Below, piece after piece: positions 5,789 through 11,611 of a stretch of DNA of 64,000 bases. The number at the start of each line of letters is the position of its first letter. Position 1 is the first letter of the stretch. The translations under genes were made by a program, and so were the position numbers. Source of the DNA: Streptomyces sp. NBC_00234 (GTDB lineage Bacteria > Actinomycetota > Actinomycetes > Streptomycetales > Streptomycetaceae); assembly GCF_036195325.1 (NCBI RefSeq), contig NZ_CP108101.1, positions 7,440,001 to 7,504,000 on the forward strand, in the 5' to 3' direction. A model generated the notes under the pieces. The model was not told the origin of the DNA and did no database searches. It worked only from the letters and a program-made list of their open reading frames with translations.

Positions 5789-6901
5789 TCACGACAGCGT
5801 GGGTGGGCGCTCGATCGCGATCATGGCGGCGTCGTCACCCAAGCGTCCGCCGACGTGGTCGAGCAGATCGCCCCGAAGGCGGCGGAGGAATGCGTCGGGG
5901 TTGCTCTCGGTCCACCCCGTGATGCGCTCGATGAGCCGATAGAAGGCACCGGAGGAGTCGCGGGCCTCGATTACTCCGTCGGTGTAGAGCAGCAGGAAGT
6001 CCCCTGCCTCGAAGGAGAAGGTGTCGACGCGGTAGCTGGGGCGTGTCAGTTCACCGAGGCCCAGCGGAGGAGCCGGCTGGGAGGCATCGATCGTCCGGGC
6101 TCGACCGTTGCGCAGCACGATCGGCGGAGGGTGCCCGCAGCTGATCATGTGGACCTCGTCGCCCCGGTCGGGGATGTCCAGAACGGCGGCGGTGATGAAG
6201 GTTTCTCCGGTCCGGTCCGTCTCTCCCGGTTCGGACAGGCCCCAGCACACGCTTCCATCGAGATAGGTGACGAGTTCGGCCAGAGTTGCCTGGCGGTGGG
6301 CGGCGGCCCGGAACGCCCCGAGCAGCAGGGCGGCGTCACCGACGGCGGTCATGCCTTTGCCCCGAACGTCACCGATGATCAGCCGGGTGCCGGAGCCGGC
6401 GCGTACGGCCGCATACAAATCACCGCCGATCTGCGCCTCGGCCTCGGCGGCGAGATAGGCAGAGGCGACCTTCAGCGGTCCGATCCGCGTGGGCAGTGGC
6501 CGGAGAACGACGCGCTGAGCGGTCTCGGCCACGTATCTCACTTGCATGAGTTCATTCGCACGGCGCTCCCGCAGTACGCAGAAGACCACGAGGCTCGATC
6601 CGACCAGGACCAGGGCGGCGATCTGCGCCTGGTGGTTCGCCGAGAACAGGTTGTCCCGATCGCGCAGCACCGCGATGACCCCCTGGGCCACCACCGCGAG
6701 GGCGGCGACCAGCCCCGTCCCCCAGGGGCCGGCGAACGATGCGGTGACCGCCGGTGCTGCGACCAGCAAAGGACCCAGGTGGATATCGGGCGGCGCGAGA
6801 ACGTCGACCACGACAACAGCCACCATCAGCGCGATCGGGACGGCCGCCAGCCCACGACTCCCTTTGAACCATCGTCGAGGACCGGCGAAGCGATGCGACA
6901 C
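5789..6901 (-). CDS. Membrane PP2C (SpoIIE-type) serine phosphatase
   Basis: This 370-residue protein has about four N-terminal membrane helices (residues 18-115) and then a SpoIIE/PP2C phosphatase domain (about 135-365). Metal-binding acidic motifs are visible: IGGDLYAAV, IGDVRGKGMTAVGDAA, LLLYTDGVIEARD and GDDAAMIAI. The family removes phosphate from Ser on anti-anti-sigma or other proteins. No anti-sigma or STAS gene is adjacent, so its partner is elsewhere. A second phosphatase with similar layout is at 28298-29443. Confidence 0.9.
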   Translation of the reverse strand: MSHRFAGPRRWFKGSRGLAAVPIALMVAVVVVDVLAPPDIHLGPLLVAAPAVTASFAGPWGTGLVAALAVVAQGVIAVLRDRDNLFSANHQAQIAALVLVGSSLVVFCVLRERRANELMQVRYVAETAQRVVLRPLPTRIGPLKVASAYLAAEAEAQIGGDLYAAVRAGSGTRLIIGDVRGKGMTAVGDAALLLGAFRAAAHRQATLAELVTYLDGSVCWGLSEPGETDRTGETFITAAVLDIPDRGDEVHMISCGHPPPIVLRNGRARTIDASQPAPPLGLGELTRPSYRVDTFSFEAGDFLLLYTDGVIEARDSSGAFYRLIERITGWTESNPDAFLRRLRGDLLDHVGGRLGDDAAMIAIERPPTLS

Positions 6902-7140: not shown

Positions 7141-8094
7141 CTCGCGCTTTCACGCGGCTGGGTGTCCGATGCATGATCGGAAACGCGAAGAGTGCTCCTG
7201 ACCTGTAACGATGGGACTTGTCTAGGGTCCGGGTCGTCGCGTGAAAGAAGCACTCCTCAGGTGAAGAAGCGTATCGGGTCCTATCCGCGTGTCCGCATCG
7301 AGGGCGGTGGCCGGGCGGTGGTCTCCCAGGCCGGAGGGGTGCTTCTGGTCGAGACGGTCCGCAAGGGCGGCCTGGACGCCGCGATATCGGCGGCGCTCGC
7401 GCCGTCGCGGCGGCCTCGGGCGGTGCATGGTCCGGGGAAGATCCTGCTGGACGTGGCCCTGGCGGTCGCGCTGGGCGGGGACTGCCTCGCGGATGTCGCG
7501 ATGCTGCGGGCCGAACGGCCGTGTTCGGGCCGGTGGCCTCCGACCCGACCGTCTCCCGGCTCATCGACAAGCTCGCCGTGGGCGGGCCGAAGACTCTGAC
7601 CGCGATCCGGTCGGCGCGGGCCGAAGTGCGAGAGCGGGTCTGGAAGTTGGCTGGCTCCTCGTCGCCGGACGCGGGCGGTCAGGTGATCGTGGACCTGGAC
7701 GGGGTGCTGGTCCTGGCTCACTCCGACAAGCAGGACGCGGCCGCTACCTGGAAGAAGTCCTACGGACATCATCCGCTGATGGGTTTCGTCGACCACGGAC
7801 GCGGCGGCACCGGGGAGCCGGTGGCCGCGCTGCTACGGCCCGGGAACGCGGGCAGCAACACCGCATTCAGCAGTCACTGGCCCTGGACCGACGTGATCAC
7901 AGGCGCGATCCAGCGACTCGACGCACTCCCGAATCCTGGATGACCAGCAGCAACGGCCCGTCCCGACGAACTCGAACCACTCACCGGAGCCGTGGAACCC
8001 GACGCGACAGCCGGGTCATCGTCCTACCCGTCACCGACCCGACAAGCCGAAACGGACCGCCGGAGAATCCGACGGCCCGGCACGAAAGATCGAG
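7141..8094 (+). mobile_element. IS1380-type element, copy 1, internally deleted
   Basis: This 954-bp element is nearly identical to copy 2 (13799-15455) at both ends, but lacks 692 bp (copy 2 positions 14523-15214; junction at 7864/7865). It also lacks 11 bp near the right end. Ends are CTCGCGCTTTC and its imperfect inverse GAAAGATCGAG. Flanks ATTAGC and GCTAGT share only TAG, so there is no clean target duplication. It keeps both ends and could only move with transposase supplied in trans. Confidence 0.87.
7261..7943 (+). pseudogene. IS1380-type DDE transposase, frameshifted and internally deleted
   Basis: The frame starts at GTG 7261 (VKKRIGSYPRVRIEGGG). A one-base loss near 7514-7520 shifts it: reading resumes at 7521 with FGPVASDPTVSRLIDKLA. 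It continues through VIVDLDGVLVLAHS, which holds the first catalytic Asp. After GNAGSNTA the gene jumps to its last 28 residues. About 230 codons, including the second Asp and Glu regions, are gone. The same frameshift is in copy 2. No active enzyme can be made. Confidence 0.85.
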
Positions 8095-8325: not shown

Positions 8326-10398
8326 TCAGGGTTCGGTGCCGTCCCCGTCTCTGCCCCCGTCCCCGTCCCAGTCCCGCAGTTGGCGCAGCGCGAGGCCGGT
8401 TGCCGACTTGCACAGGAACTCTGCGCGCTCGTAGGACAGTCGCCCTCGGCCGCTCTGCGGGCAGACGTCGGCCGCGCCCAGGATGCCTGCCCGCGCCGGA
8501 CCCGGGCGTCGGTCGGTGAGGAACACCGGGCCCTGGGTCCGGCCGTCCAGGAGTTCGGACAGGAGCGCGGCCGTTTTCGATCGCCAGGTGATCCACGCGC
8601 CACGCCGGTCCGACCGCCGGTCCGCGAGGCAGGCTCGTCGCTCCGGCAGGTCCAGGTCCTGGACGTTGAGGGCCAGCAAGGCCGTGACGGTGGAGCCCGA
8701 CTCGTGCAGCAGCGTCCACAAGGTGCGCTCCCGCAACGAGGCTTCCACCTCTCCCGGCCACGCAGTTCCTGGCGGGACCGGGGCGGGTACGGGCGCCGGT
8801 GCGCGGCAGCGCCGGGGCATCCGCTGGGGGATGGCCGCGTCAAGGTCCGGGGTGTCCGTCCACGCACCGAACGCCCTCACAGCGGCGCGGTGCCGGTTCC
8901 ACGTGGACGCCGCCACGCCGCCCCACGAGAGGCGGAAGGCACCGGCAATCTGATCGGCCGTCAGTGAGGTGAGCGGCATCCCCACTCCCAGAGCCAGCCG
9001 CAGTCGCCACAACGTCTGTCCGTACGAGCGGGCCGTCGCCGGTGCGAGCCGGTCCTGGGCCAGGAACGCGTCGATGGCCTCCCCGAACGTCGGCGTGGAT
9101 GCGTCCCCGACCGGGATCGCCTCGGCACGCCGCGTCAGGTACGCGCTTTCGGCGGCGTTCCGGGTCAGCAGCGCCGCACGCTCGAACTCGCGGCGGGCTT
9201 CTTCGCCGCGCCCCAGGCGCAGCAGCAGGTCGCCGCGCACGCCGGGGAGCAGGTGGTAGTCGCGGAGCGCAGGGTCGGGGGCGAGCGTGTCGACGAGGGC
9301 GAGGCCGGCTGCGGGGCCGTCCGCCATGCCCACCGCGACCGCCTGGTTGAGCCGCACCACGGCGGTGGGTAGGAGGCGGGCGAGGGCGGCGTACAGTCCG
9401 GAAATCCGTGCCCAGTCGGTCTCCTCGGCGGTGCGTGCCTGGGCGTGGCAGATGGCGATCGCGGCCTGCAGTACGTAGGGACCTGGCTGGCCGGGTGTAC
9501 CGGCCGCGCGAGCCCGCAGCATCGCCGCGAAGCCGCGACGGATGAGCAAGGGGTCCCAGCGTCCCCGGTTCTGCATGTGCAGCGGAACCGGTTCGCCGGC
9601 GGGGCCGGTGCGGGCCGCCGTGCGGGAGGCATGGACCTCCATGAGCGCCACCAGGCCGTGTACTTCCGCCTCGTCGGGTACCGACCGGGCGAGCAGGCGT
9701 CCCAGCCGCAGCGCCTCCAGGCACAGGCCGGGCCGCATCAGGTCGTCGCCCGAGGTCGCCGAGTAGCCCTCGTTGAAGATCAGGTAGACGACCTCCAGGA
9801 CGGAGGCGAGGCGTTCGGTCAGCTCGGCGCCGTCCGGTAGTTCGAACGGCACCCGCTCCTCGGCGAGTGTGCGCTTCGCCGTGGCGATGCGGCGGGCGAT
9901 CAGCGGCTCGGCGGTGAGGAACGCGCGGGCGATCTCGGACGCGGTGAGTCCGCCGAGCAGCCGCAGGGTCAGGGCGACGCGTGCCTCGGTCGGTAGGACC
10001 GAGTGGCAGGAGACGAACATCAGCCGTAGCACGTCGTCCTGCTCTGAGGCGGGATCGGCGGACTCGGCGGACTCAAGATCGTGGTCGACGCCGCCGTCGC
10101 CATCACCGTCGAGCCGCTGCTGCTCGGCCAGTTCGTGCGCGAGCGTCTCGCCGTGCTCGGCCAACCGCCGGTCGCGGCGGATGTGGTCGACAGCGCGGCG
10201 CTTGGCGACGGTGGTGAGCCAGGCGCCCGGATTGTCCGGGATTCCAGACTCGGGCCACCGTTCCAGCGCCGCGACCAGCGCGTCCTGTGCCAATTCCTCG
10301 GCCACGCCGACGTCGCGCACCATGCGGGTGAGCGCGGCGACGATACGGGCCGACTCCATCTTCCAGATCGCGTCGACCGTGCGGTGGACGTCCGTCAC
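8326..10398 (-). CDS. ECF42-type sigma factor fused to a degenerate tyrosine-recombinase domain
   Basis: This 690-residue protein has three parts. Residues 1-185 carry sigma region 2 (EELAQDALVAALERWPESG, NPGAWLTTVAKRRAVDHIRR) and region 4 (RLLGGLTASEIARAFL). Residues 190-425 are the TPR-like C-terminal extension of the ECF42 group (IFNEGYSATSGDDLMRPGLC). Residues 434-676 look like a phage integrase: SAM-like core-binding domain (ATARSYGQTLWRLRLALG) and catalytic domain (LALNVQDLDL, GPVFLTDRRPGPARA, GRGRLSYERAE). The integrase lacks key residues: the Arg I position reads SGSTVT, the HxxR motif reads RQLR, and the Tyr box is missing. ECF42 proteins normally end near residue 425. The GTG start overlaps the YCII stop (GTGA), so the two are translationally coupled. 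Confidence 0.85.
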   Translation of the reverse strand: MTDVHRTVDAIWKMESARIVAALTRMVRDVGVAEELAQDALVAALERWPESGIPDNPGAWLTTVAKRRAVDHIRRDRRLAEHGETLAHELAEQQRLDGDGDGGVDHDLESAESADPASEQDDVLRLMFVSCHSVLPTEARVALTLRLLGGLTASEIARAFLTAEPLIARRIATAKRTLAEERVPFELPDGAELTERLASVLEVVYLIFNEGYSATSGDDLMRPGLCLEALRLGRLLARSVPDEAEVHGLVALMEVHASRTAARTGPAGEPVPLHMQNRGRWDPLLIRRGFAAMLRARAAGTPGQPGPYVLQAAIAICHAQARTAEETDWARISGLYAALARLLPTAVVRLNQAVAVGMADGPAAGLALVDTLAPDPALRDYHLLPGVRGDLLLRLGRGEEARREFERAALLTRNAAESAYLTRRAEAIPVGDASTPTFGEAIDAFLAQDRLAPATARSYGQTLWRLRLALGVGMPLTSLTADQIAGAFRLSWGGVAASTWNRHRAAVRAFGAWTDTPDLDAAIPQRMPRRCRAPAPVPAPVPPGTAWPGEVEASLRERTLWTLLHESGSTVTALLALNVQDLDLPERRACLADRRSDRRGAWITWRSKTAALLSELLDGRTQGPVFLTDRRPGPARAGILGAADVCPQSGRGRLSYERAEFLCKSATGLALRQLRDWDGDGGRDGDGTEP

Positions 10399-10724
10399 GG
10401 ACCGAAGACCTGCTGGATCATGCTCTCGCCGTCACCGACGATCTTCCGGAACCGGCGGCCCAGTTCCACCGCCTCCTCCTGGGAGCGGACCTCGATGAGG
10501 GCGAAGCCGACGACGGCCTCCTTCGACTCGGCGAACGGGCCGTCCGTGACGGTGATGACGCCGCCCTCGGAGACCAGCCGGACACCTCCCGGTTCGAGCC
10601 CGCCGGTGGCCAGCAGCGCACCTGCGGCGCTCAGCTCCTCGATGAAGGCGCCCATCTCGGCGAAGAGCTTCTCGTCGGGGACCTTCGCCGTCTCCGAGGC
10701 CTTGGTCGTCATCAAGTAGCGCAT
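10395..10724 (-). CDS. YCII/DGPF-domain protein, ECF42 partner
   Basis: This 109-residue single-domain protein begins MRYLMTTKAS and contains the VTDGPFAESKE signature (about residues 59-69) of DGPF/YCII proteins. Such genes typically accompany ECF42 sigma factors and are common targets of them. The stop overlaps the sigma-factor start by four bases (GTGA). ATG 10724 was chosen because homologues begin MRYL/MKYL; a longer open frame upstream lacks support. The biochemical role is unproven. Confidence 0.92.
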   Translation of the reverse strand: MRYLMTTKASETAKVPDEKLFAEMGAFIEELSAAGALLATGGLEPGGVRLVSEGGVITVTDGPFAESKEAVVGFALIEVRSQEEAVELGRRFRKIVGDGESMIQQVFGP

Positions 10725-10794
10725 GGTGTCTCTCCGGTTTCGTCCTGCCCGGCCGGATCGCCGGGGCGTACTGACACGTCGTACCGACGATGTG

Positions 10795-10818
10795 ACAGGG
10801 AATTCGCTGATTCCCTGT
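10795..10818. promoter_or_regulatory. Inverted repeat in the YCII/DUF998 divergent promoter region
   Basis: ACAGGGAAT (10795-10803) and ATTCCCTGT (10810-10818) form a perfect 9-bp inverted repeat with a 6-base spacer. A second one, CGTCG-TAC-CGACG, is at 10777-10789. Both lie between the divergent YCII and DUF998 genes. The binding protein is unknown. Confidence 0.45.
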
Positions 10819-10894
10819 TGTATCAGCGGATCGACGTCGGTGTGAGCCCCACGGAAGAAGTCCGAGGCCCGCCCGCCCCTCGAAGGAGCCCGTC

Positions 10895-11611
10895 GTGACC
10901 ACCAGCACCCGCTTCCCGCACGCCACAGCCACAGCCACCACAGCGGCAGCGGCCGCCGACCAGGCTCGCCCCGCTGCCCGGCGCGGCTCGGTCGGCACCC
11001 GTCGGCTGCTCGCCTGCGCTGCCGTCGCCGGTCCACTGTGGGTGGCCGTGTCGGTCGCCCAGGCACTCACCCGCGAGGGGTTCGAGCCGACCCGGCACGC
11101 GCTCAGCCAGCTGGCCACCGGATCGCTCGGCTGGCTGCAGATCACCAACTTCGTGATCGCCGGGATCCTGGCCACGGTGGGCGCGGCCGGACTGCGCCGG
11201 GTCATGCAGGGGACGGCCGGTGGTGTCGCGGTGCCGCGGCTGGTCCGGGTGGTCGGGGTCGGCATGGTCGCCGCCGGGCTGCTCACGATGGACCCGGCGG
11301 ACGCCTTTCCGGTGGGCACGCCGGAGGGCATCCCGCAGTCGATGAGCTGGCACGCGTACGGACACATGGCCGCCGGGTCGATCACCTTCGCCTCGCTGAT
11401 CGCCGCGGGCTACCTGTTCGGTCGGCACTTCTCCCGGCTCGGCAACCGGCGGCTCGCGGTGGTCTCCCGCGTCTCCGCCACGGTGATGCTGGCCGGCGAC
11501 GCCTGGTCGATGAGCGGTGGTAAGGCGGGCGCGCTGACCATGGCCATTGGCACGACCGTCATGTTCACGCTGCTCGCGTACGTGGCCGCGCACTACCGGC
11601 GTACTGCCTGA
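10895..11611 (+). CDS. DUF998 family membrane protein
   Basis: This 238-residue protein has an Ala/Thr-rich cytoplasmic start and about six membrane helices from residue 38 on. DUF998 features are present: EGFEPTRHALSQLATGSLGWLQ after helix 1 and a central segment (about 130-150) ending near HAYGHM. The function is unknown; members often sit beside ECF or TetR stress regulators. AAGGAG (10882-10887) lies before GTG 10895. Being divergent from the YCII/ECF42 pair, it may belong to the same regulon. Confidence 0.85.
   Translation: MTTSTRFPHATATATTAAAAADQARPAARRGSVGTRRLLACAAVAGPLWVAVSVAQALTREGFEPTRHALSQLATGSLGWLQITNFVIAGILATVGAAGLRRVMQGTAGGVAVPRLVRVVGVGMVAAGLLTMDPADAFPVGTPEGIPQSMSWHAYGHMAAGSITFASLIAAGYLFGRHFSRLGNRRLAVVSRVSATVMLAGDAWSMSGGKAGALTMAIGTTVMFTLLAYVAAHYRRTA

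Follow-up and report, generated by a model that had tools for sequence, protein, structure and literature searches.

The window, by which we mean the whole stretch of 64,000 nucleotides from Streptomyces sp. NBC_00234 that was analyzed, carries on its minus strand a single GTG-started open reading frame of 690 codons without any internal stop, in which an ECF42 sigma factor runs in frame into a dead, truncated tyrosine recombinase (hereafter the Int part). The single frame, and an ECF42 sigma factor with a TPR-like extension in its first part, had been proposed in an initial annotation made from the letters alone, and both were upheld by Pfam (sigma-2, sigma-4 and DUF6596) and by homology of residues 300-425. 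A YCII/DGPF-family gene lies upstream of the fusion gene and overlaps it by four bases, and a DUF998 gene diverges from this pair. The features of the locus, in window positions, are the following.

8326-10398, minus strand: fusion gene, ECF42 sigma factor plus dead, truncated tyrosine recombinase, 690 aa (open reading frame, Pfam, conserved junction).
10165-10347, minus strand: sigma region 2, residues 18-78 (Pfam Sigma70_r2, PF04542).
9865-10020, minus strand: sigma region 4, residues 127-178, with a recognition helix that has degenerated in comparison with non-fused ECF42 (Pfam Sigma70_r4_2, PF08281, and column comparison).
9511-9813, minus strand: DUF6596, part of the ECF42 C-terminal extension, residues 196-296 (Pfam PF20239).
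9124-9501, minus strand: remaining ECF42 extension, TPR-like, residues 300-425 (homology to the C-terminal end of non-fused ECF42; TPR matches under the Pfam cut-off).
8860-9090, minus strand: recombinase core-binding (SAM-like) domain, residues 437-513 (Pfam Phage_int_SAM_1, PF02899; AlphaFold2; Foldseek).
8374-8736, minus strand: truncated remnant of the catalytic domain, residues 555-675 (alignment to standalone relatives).
10395-10724, minus strand: YCII/DGPF-family gene, first gene of the operon, 109 aa (Pfam PF03795).
10895-11611, plus strand: DUF998 gene, divergent (Pfam PF06197).
10777-10802, minus strand: proposed promoter of the YCII-fusion operon, half-site TTCCCTGTCACAT (10790-10802) and -10-like CGACG (10777-10781) (pattern match).
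10811-10836, plus strand: TTCCCTGTTGTATCAGCGGATCGACG, a mirrored and partly degenerate half-site and -10 oriented toward the divergent DUF998 gene (sequence comparison).
10789-10824, no strand: inverted repeat of the recombinase core-site type, 14-bp arms (the left one degenerate in the window) and an 8-bp spacer at 10803-10810 (alignment of loci).

The presence of both sigma-2 and sigma-4 meets the criterion for an ECF42 protein, and the long C-terminal extension of the ECF42 type is present, with DUF6596 matched at an E-value of 2.5e-34 and TPR matches remaining below the curated cut-off. Residues 1-425 share 62% identity with a non-fused ECF42-like protein encoded by the same genome. This genome, a single contig of 8.27 Mb, contains three further proteins of the ECF42-type sigma family, none of which bears an Int part. 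The nearest named kin of the window fusion are found in Embleya and Streptomyces records.

We describe the remainder of the protein in the standard tyrosine-recombinase terms of core-binding domain, Arg box and HxxR. An integrase with core-binding and catalytic domains had been placed at residues 434-676; the core-binding domain stands, with a Pfam Phage_int_SAM_1 match above the cut-off at residues 448-513, a structural model and weak fold matches, whereas the catalytic domain is only partial, being truncated at the would-be HxxR box. No Pfam Phage_integrase catalytic match was obtained in the window fusion, and its catalytic part was recognizable through alignment to relatives. This alignment agreed with the earlier reading of SGSTVT at the Arg box, RQLR for HxxR (His lost, last Arg kept) and an absent Tyr; the Lys hairpin is also gone, and the second His/Trp is missing together with the Tyr and the C-terminus. 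The residue set of an active tyrosine recombinase (Arg box, Lys, HxxR, His/Trp and Tyr) is not met in the window copy.

AlphaFold2 predicted the core-binding domain with a pLDDT of 80-91 in its blocks. The best Foldseek matches of this model were recombinases and integrase core-binding domains (3lys, 2oxo) at high probability, and SroF, a phage repressor of the tyrosine-recombinase fold, appeared among the weak matches. A folded DNA clamp of the Int part was nevertheless not demonstrated by the models, because the model of the Int piece covers the core-binding domain only (residues 95-196 of the piece fall below pLDDT 50), no Foldseek match of the core-binding model reached E <= 0.001, and the full-length fusion model, from a three-row alignment, was unusable at a mean pLDDT of 44.7. 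Against solved structures, the Int profile gave a single match at an E-value limit of 1, namely to a response regulator that is unrelated (E 0.64). No relative turned up when viral_contigs was scanned with the Int alignment, and a viral origin of the Int part was rejected on that account.

We found the same fusion in 10 of 199 genomes of a genus sample, the window genome included, and in 21 of 150 genomes of a family sample (22 loci, one of them, L099 in genome G320, frameshifted inside Int). A class-wide search of 394 genomes added at least 12 fusions in another family: the 16 regions read from the matches listed comprised 12 fusions, two standalone genes without ECF42 (L202, L203) and two live recombinases (L210, L215). 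With the two family-sample fusion genomes that also sit in the genus sample counted once, the total came to at least 42 fused loci from whole genomes, spanning several genera of two actinobacterial families, and at all 42 the reading frame carries through from the ECF42 part to the Int part. Six named records, two Embleya and three Streptomyces anulatus strains among them, also bear the fusion; they are counted beside the 42 loci, and an overlap with the sampled genomes is not excluded. Relatives in which the two parts are always separate genes, an outcome that would have refuted the fusion, were not found. The same in-frame junction occurs in nine other genomes of the genus, in two Embleya records and at many further loci, and because it recurs in this way a sequencing error or frameshift near 9100 is excluded; the initial annotation had called for a check near 9111. 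Four public plasmid records, three of them from S. anulatus strains, annotate the fusion as one coding sequence of 659-676 aa, preceded by a YciI gene and accompanied by a divergent DUF998, and name it merely RNA polymerase sigma factor, which makes the class easy to overlook; the two Embleya records have no annotation at the locus.

Nei-Gojobori estimates for 11 close pairs, some of which share a member, gave a dN/dS of 0.18-0.53 for the Int part, below 1 in every pair, and lower values of 0.13-0.21 for the sigma part. The initial annotation had left it between a co-opted and a decaying integrase. Because the fusion is conserved over at least 42 loci with an Int dN/dS below 1, co-option is supported, and plain decay was rejected.

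In a careful tree of the sigma part (60 rows), 36 fusions formed one clade with a bootstrap of 100 and an SH-aLRT of 98, hereafter the main clade, with L199 and L201 outside it; a first quick tree (52 rows) had placed 30 fusions on one side with a support of 72. The careful tree requires two changes, a single clade of all 38 fusions was not rejected (p-AU 0.274), and the trees do not resolve whether there were one or two fusion events. A clade test on the Int tree (p 0.0021) is void, as L170, L171, L172 and L179, which had entered it as standalone genes, are fusions. The frameshifted L099 was left out of the Int alignment and tree, and L211-L214 are in no tree and outside the table of 38 loci.

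All 35 readable main-clade fusions end at the HxxR position and all are without the Arg, the His remaining in L093. In five fusions from the other family (L201, L211-L214), HxxR and the second His region remain but the Arg box and the Tyr are gone, and these proteins look less reduced than the main-clade fusions. The standalone kin L101, L168 and L210 present the full set of Arg box, Lys hairpin, HxxR, second His and Tyr.

A YCII/DGPF gene is typically linked to ECF42; all 38 fused loci of the table, the one in the window among them, have a YCII match ahead of the sigma part, and such a match is found at 20 of 22 non-fused loci. We take TGTCGA...CGACG to be the ECF42 promoter motif, on the basis of the non-fused loci of this analysis and of general knowledge. 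Within 250 bp ahead of YCII, TGTCGA...CG was present at 19 of the 20 non-fused loci (L115 and L124, where the YCII match is absent, were left out of this count). By contrast, the canonical pattern was found at only one of 30 fused loci, L046, where its distance is atypical, and the window operon does not meet it, having retained the -10 part, CGACG. Judging from sequence, the fused genes have a promoter of their own in place of the canonical ECF42 one.

At the fused loci the upstream region contains the inverted repeat GATGTGACAGGGAA-N-TTCCCTGTCACATC, of which both arms are clear in 23 of 36 main-clade loci, with a spacer of 8 bp (14 loci), 9 bp (six loci) or 10, 16 and 22 bp (one locus each). 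The distance from the half-site to the end of CGACG is 26 bp at eight loci and 27 bp at 26, together 34 of the 38, under a pattern that permitted 20-28 bp; the four unmatched loci are L085, with one mismatch, the frameshifted L099, and L199 and L201, whose half-sites lie farther upstream. DUF998 is the divergent neighbor at 27 of 38 fused loci, and a mirrored arm with CGACG on the opposite strand was seen at 26 of 38, namely at 22 of the 25 main-clade loci with divergent DUF998 and at 4 of the 11 without it. Both promoters share the repeat in their -35 regions. An inverted-repeat core site near the gene, as expected of a TnpI-type arrangement, is present in the window, where it now lies within the promoter of the operon and its mirrored arm is degenerate; its nature as a recombination site is inferred. 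At L046, L094, L095, L097, L098 and L100 the YCII-side half-site has no mirror partner, and in L194 the same base is altered in both arms. At L043 (genome G004), the repeat and DUF998 are situated about 2.9 kb from the YCII-fusion pair, with genes in between.

The contacts of sigma-4 to the -35 element lie in its recognition helix. Recognition residues 164, 166, 169 and 173 read ETQR in all 20 non-fused proteins and in none of the 36 main-clade fusions, one of which reads EAQR and three of which retain R173. The mean column entropy of sigma-4 was 0.83 bits in the fused versus 0.34 bits in the non-fused proteins, with corresponding values of 0.70 and 0.65 for sigma-2, 0.44 and 0.50 for DUF6596, and 0.70 and 0.71 for the TPR part. 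Positions 164, 166 and 173 reached 1.8-2.7 bits in the fusions, and the half-site is nearly invariant at the same loci. The distant L003 and L004 were left out of this comparison; the 20 non-fused proteins are best matches, and the set may be narrow. Among the six fusions with upstream half-sites, L199 reads ETQR and L201 and L211-L214 read EAQR; the canonical TGTCGA promoter was matched by pattern in three of the six, L201 has TGTCTG at the canonical place (by eye), and L211 and L213 gave no pattern match. Such a pairing of sigma-4 state with half-site placement is what would be expected if the reading of the -35 had moved from sigma-4 to Int. The earlier suggestion that an added DNA-binding domain could change promoter choice is therefore supported by sequence, in that the canonical promoter is lost, a recombinase-type inverted repeat occupies its place and the sigma-4 helix is degenerate; there are no binding or transcription data.

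We scanned both genome samples with the pattern TTCCCTGTCAYA-N4-12-CGACG. Matches in fusion genomes are expected, because the pattern was composed from fused loci of the same samples, and the information lies in its absence elsewhere. The pattern occurred in 10 of 10 fusion genomes versus 1 of 189 others in the genus sample (199 genomes; Fisher 5e-16) and in 20 of 21 fusion genomes versus 0 of 129 others in the family sample (150 genomes; Fisher 6e-24), both without correction for relatedness. The sole non-fusion match in the genus, in genome G097 (L138, G097:C40), is an isolated half-site with CGACG that lacks the mirrored partner; standalone kin of Int are present in this genome, and the fusion was not found there. 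The fusion genome of the family sample without a match is G320, which holds the frameshifted copy. A reversed control pattern was found in no genus genome and in 6 of 150 family genomes, once each, four of them with the fusion.

In the window genome, the strict full pattern had one exact match, at the YCII-fusion promoter, and allowing up to three mismatches gave seven places (the two halves of the fusion locus and five others with three mismatches), with none for the control. The target in this genome appears, from pattern matching, to be one locus, the YCII-fusion operon together with DUF998 via the mirrored half-site. In the other family, whose loci were found by protein alone, TTCCCTGTCA was present in five of six main-clade fusions and the sixth has TTCCCTGCCA, which differs by one base. 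Among the non-fused loci (22), the 10-mer TTCCCTGTCA occurred once, which is taken as chance. The site is present in five of the six named records at a spacing of 26-27 bp. L218 (Embleya sp. NBC_00896) has the fusion and no site; judged by eye, its upstream DNA does not look related to the corresponding stretch of L219, a close relative.

Among the matches listed, L210 is the live standalone recombinase nearest to the fusions, with 55% identity to a fused Int. A repeat, GATGTGACAGGGAA-TAGCCAA-TTCCCTGTCACATC, lies at 11110-11144 of this locus, 0.9 kb before the recombinase gene, with another small frame in between; its 14-bp arms are identical to the fused consensus, and its spacer, at 7 bp, is shorter than those of the fused loci. 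The more distant live kin L168 carries TGTGACAGAGAA-N7-TTCTCTGTCACA 160 bp before the gene, with TTCTCTGTCACAC core arms and, besides these, a third half-site, TTCTCTGTCACAT. The L210 contig also bears a Tn3 transposase, and the standalone kin L101 and L103 adjoin Tn3 transposases; no Tn3 transposase was noted among the frames examined near the window fusion, although no systematic Tn3 search lies behind this. By our search rule, repeats were found near standalone recombinases at 6 of 9 loci and at 11 of 30 in a second set that includes some fusions; no shuffle control underlies these counts, and several of the repeats may be due to chance. Among the standalone repeats found, only those of L210 and L168 closely resemble the fused site, the L101 arm matching the fused arm at about 9 of 14 positions, to which we give little weight.

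In the excerpt of PMC7157771 available, the irs sites of the Tn3-family transposons Tn4430 and Tn5401 are described as an inverted-repeat core with extra half-sites near the gene, and TnpI of Tn5401 is reported to modulate promoters within its site. The fused Int is, similarly, kin to recombinases located beside Tn3 transposases (L101, L103), and the repeat core with extra half-sites near the gene is laid out like irs. Unlike TnpI, the fused copies are without catalytic residues and C-terminus, and their repeat serves a promoter. Given the match to the L210 and L168 repeats and the irs-like layout, the fused promoter element is most simply read as the recombinase's own site; that the L210 repeat is a recombination site is itself inferred. 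Genome G916 holds both L210, with its live recombinase and repeat, and L200, a fusion with nearly the same promoter repeat, and the live enzyme might act on the L200 promoter. A gene for a group II intron reverse transcriptase adjoins the live recombinase (L210:13604-14866), and two different tyrosine recombinase genes lie in tandem at L016:1480-3744.

The accepted view is that ECF sigma factors recognize their promoters through sigma-2 and sigma-4. We consider it probable that in the fusion a domesticated recombinase domain reads an old half-site as the -35 in place of sigma-4, with binding inferred. An ECF42 sigma factor would have acquired, fused in frame to its C-terminal end, a tyrosine recombinase such as Tn3-type elements carry, which then lost catalysis and kept DNA recognition. 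The old recombination half-site TTCCCTGTCACAT would now stand at the -35 of the promoter from which the sigma factor itself is expressed. The -10 (CGACG) would still be read by sigma region 2, sigma region 4 of the main clade would no longer read any -35, and the holoenzyme would be brought to this promoter by the recombinase domain. An activating rather than a blocking effect of the binding is likewise an inference, preferred because sigma-4 seems relaxed, and so is the dispensability of sigma-4. With marginally less assurance, but still as a likely account, we propose that these sigma factors make up a class whose -35 recognition was handed from sigma-4 to a domesticated recombinase domain of transposon type; by inference, this domain reads the half-site at which it once recombined, and the result is a private and often bidirectional promoter; the upstream-site fusions (L199, L201, L211-L214), with a sigma-4 helix that is intact or nearly so, would be a plausible first step with tethering only.

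The promoter repeat could instead serve as a lock: the Int part may bind it as an autorepressor of the divergent promoter, with transcription relying on sigma-2 and the -10 or on another sigma factor. The overlap of the repeat with the -35 region of both promoters fits this idea, and precedents exist, since MrpR, a dead tyrosine recombinase, represses SPbeta according to the part of PMC10516654 available, and TnpI of Tn5401 is said in the accessible part of PMC7157771 to modulate expression by binding its own site. However, a pure repressor would leave sigma-4 indispensable, whereas the canonical -35 has disappeared and degeneration of the sigma-4 helix is seen where the half-site takes the -35 position, less so where half-sites lie upstream; the YCII-side half-site also survives without its mirror at the six loci listed above. 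We regard autorepression as unlikely, though it deserves to be kept in view. A good deal less credible is that sigma-4 itself gained a new -35 specificity (TTCCCTGT...), with Int in another role such as protein contact. The half-site does begin within 1-2 bp of the canonical -35 start (26-27 versus 28 bp to the end of CGACG), but it hardly varies, in contrast to the sigma-4 recognition positions of the same proteins (1.8-2.7 bits at 164, 166 and 173), and the same sequence builds an inverted repeat near the live recombinase L210. Least of all can we credit a decaying fusion, that is, a truncated mobile-element gene read through by chance with a repeat left from its insertion. Catalytic residues and C-terminus are indeed lost in all main-clade copies read, and L099 is frameshifted; against this stand the spread of at least 42 loci over several genera of two families, an Int dN/dS that stays under 1 in all 11 pairs, the fixed spacing from half-site to -10 and the absence of the site from the genome with the broken copy (G320). 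The reading of the half-site as a -35 by the recombinase domain remains the one we prefer.

The ECF42 group has been described in PMC8999054, PMC9023288 and PMC6180224, insofar as the available portions of these papers show. Like its members (Sven_0747 and others; P. putida ECF-10), the fusion has sigma-2, sigma-4, a long TPR-like C-terminal extension and a small gene upstream; it differs in the added recombinase part, the other -35 region and, in the main clade, the degenerate sigma-4 helix. MrpR (YopR), the SPbeta repressor, is presented in the accessible text of PMC10516654 as a DNA-binding regulator with a tyrosine-recombinase fold and no recombination. The fusion shares with it a recombinase-fold part without recombination, its DNA binding being inferred, whereas MrpR is a separate phage repressor outside any sigma factor. 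In SigJ/ECF41 with SnoaL_2, a C-terminal extension is reported to modulate promoter recognition (known to us from a title cited in PMC8103513), but the domain there is of the SnoaL type and not a relic of a DNA-binding enzyme. The initial annotation knew of no described fusion of this kind, and our search of open-licence papers likewise found none on an ECF42-recombinase fusion; as far as that literature goes, the class appears new.

Collectively, the sequence record suggests that a sigma factor could acquire a new promoter when it takes in a protein from a mobile element along with the DNA site of that protein, and that the borrowed recombinase part helps decide which genes are switched on. 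The loci resemble stages before and after a hand-over of the -35, so that the rewiring of promoter specificity becomes testable, and the fusion with its half-site promoter offers a natural, nearly unique promoter-sigma pair for Streptomyces work.

Two further observations concern the DNA downstream of the fusion gene. At 7192-7943 on the plus strand, two overlapping frames match successive parts of the DDE_Tnp_1_4 transposase profile, and this stretch is, to judge from those matches, a frameshifted insertion-sequence remnant. A gene for a SpoIIE-type phosphatase lies at 5789-6901 on the minus strand.
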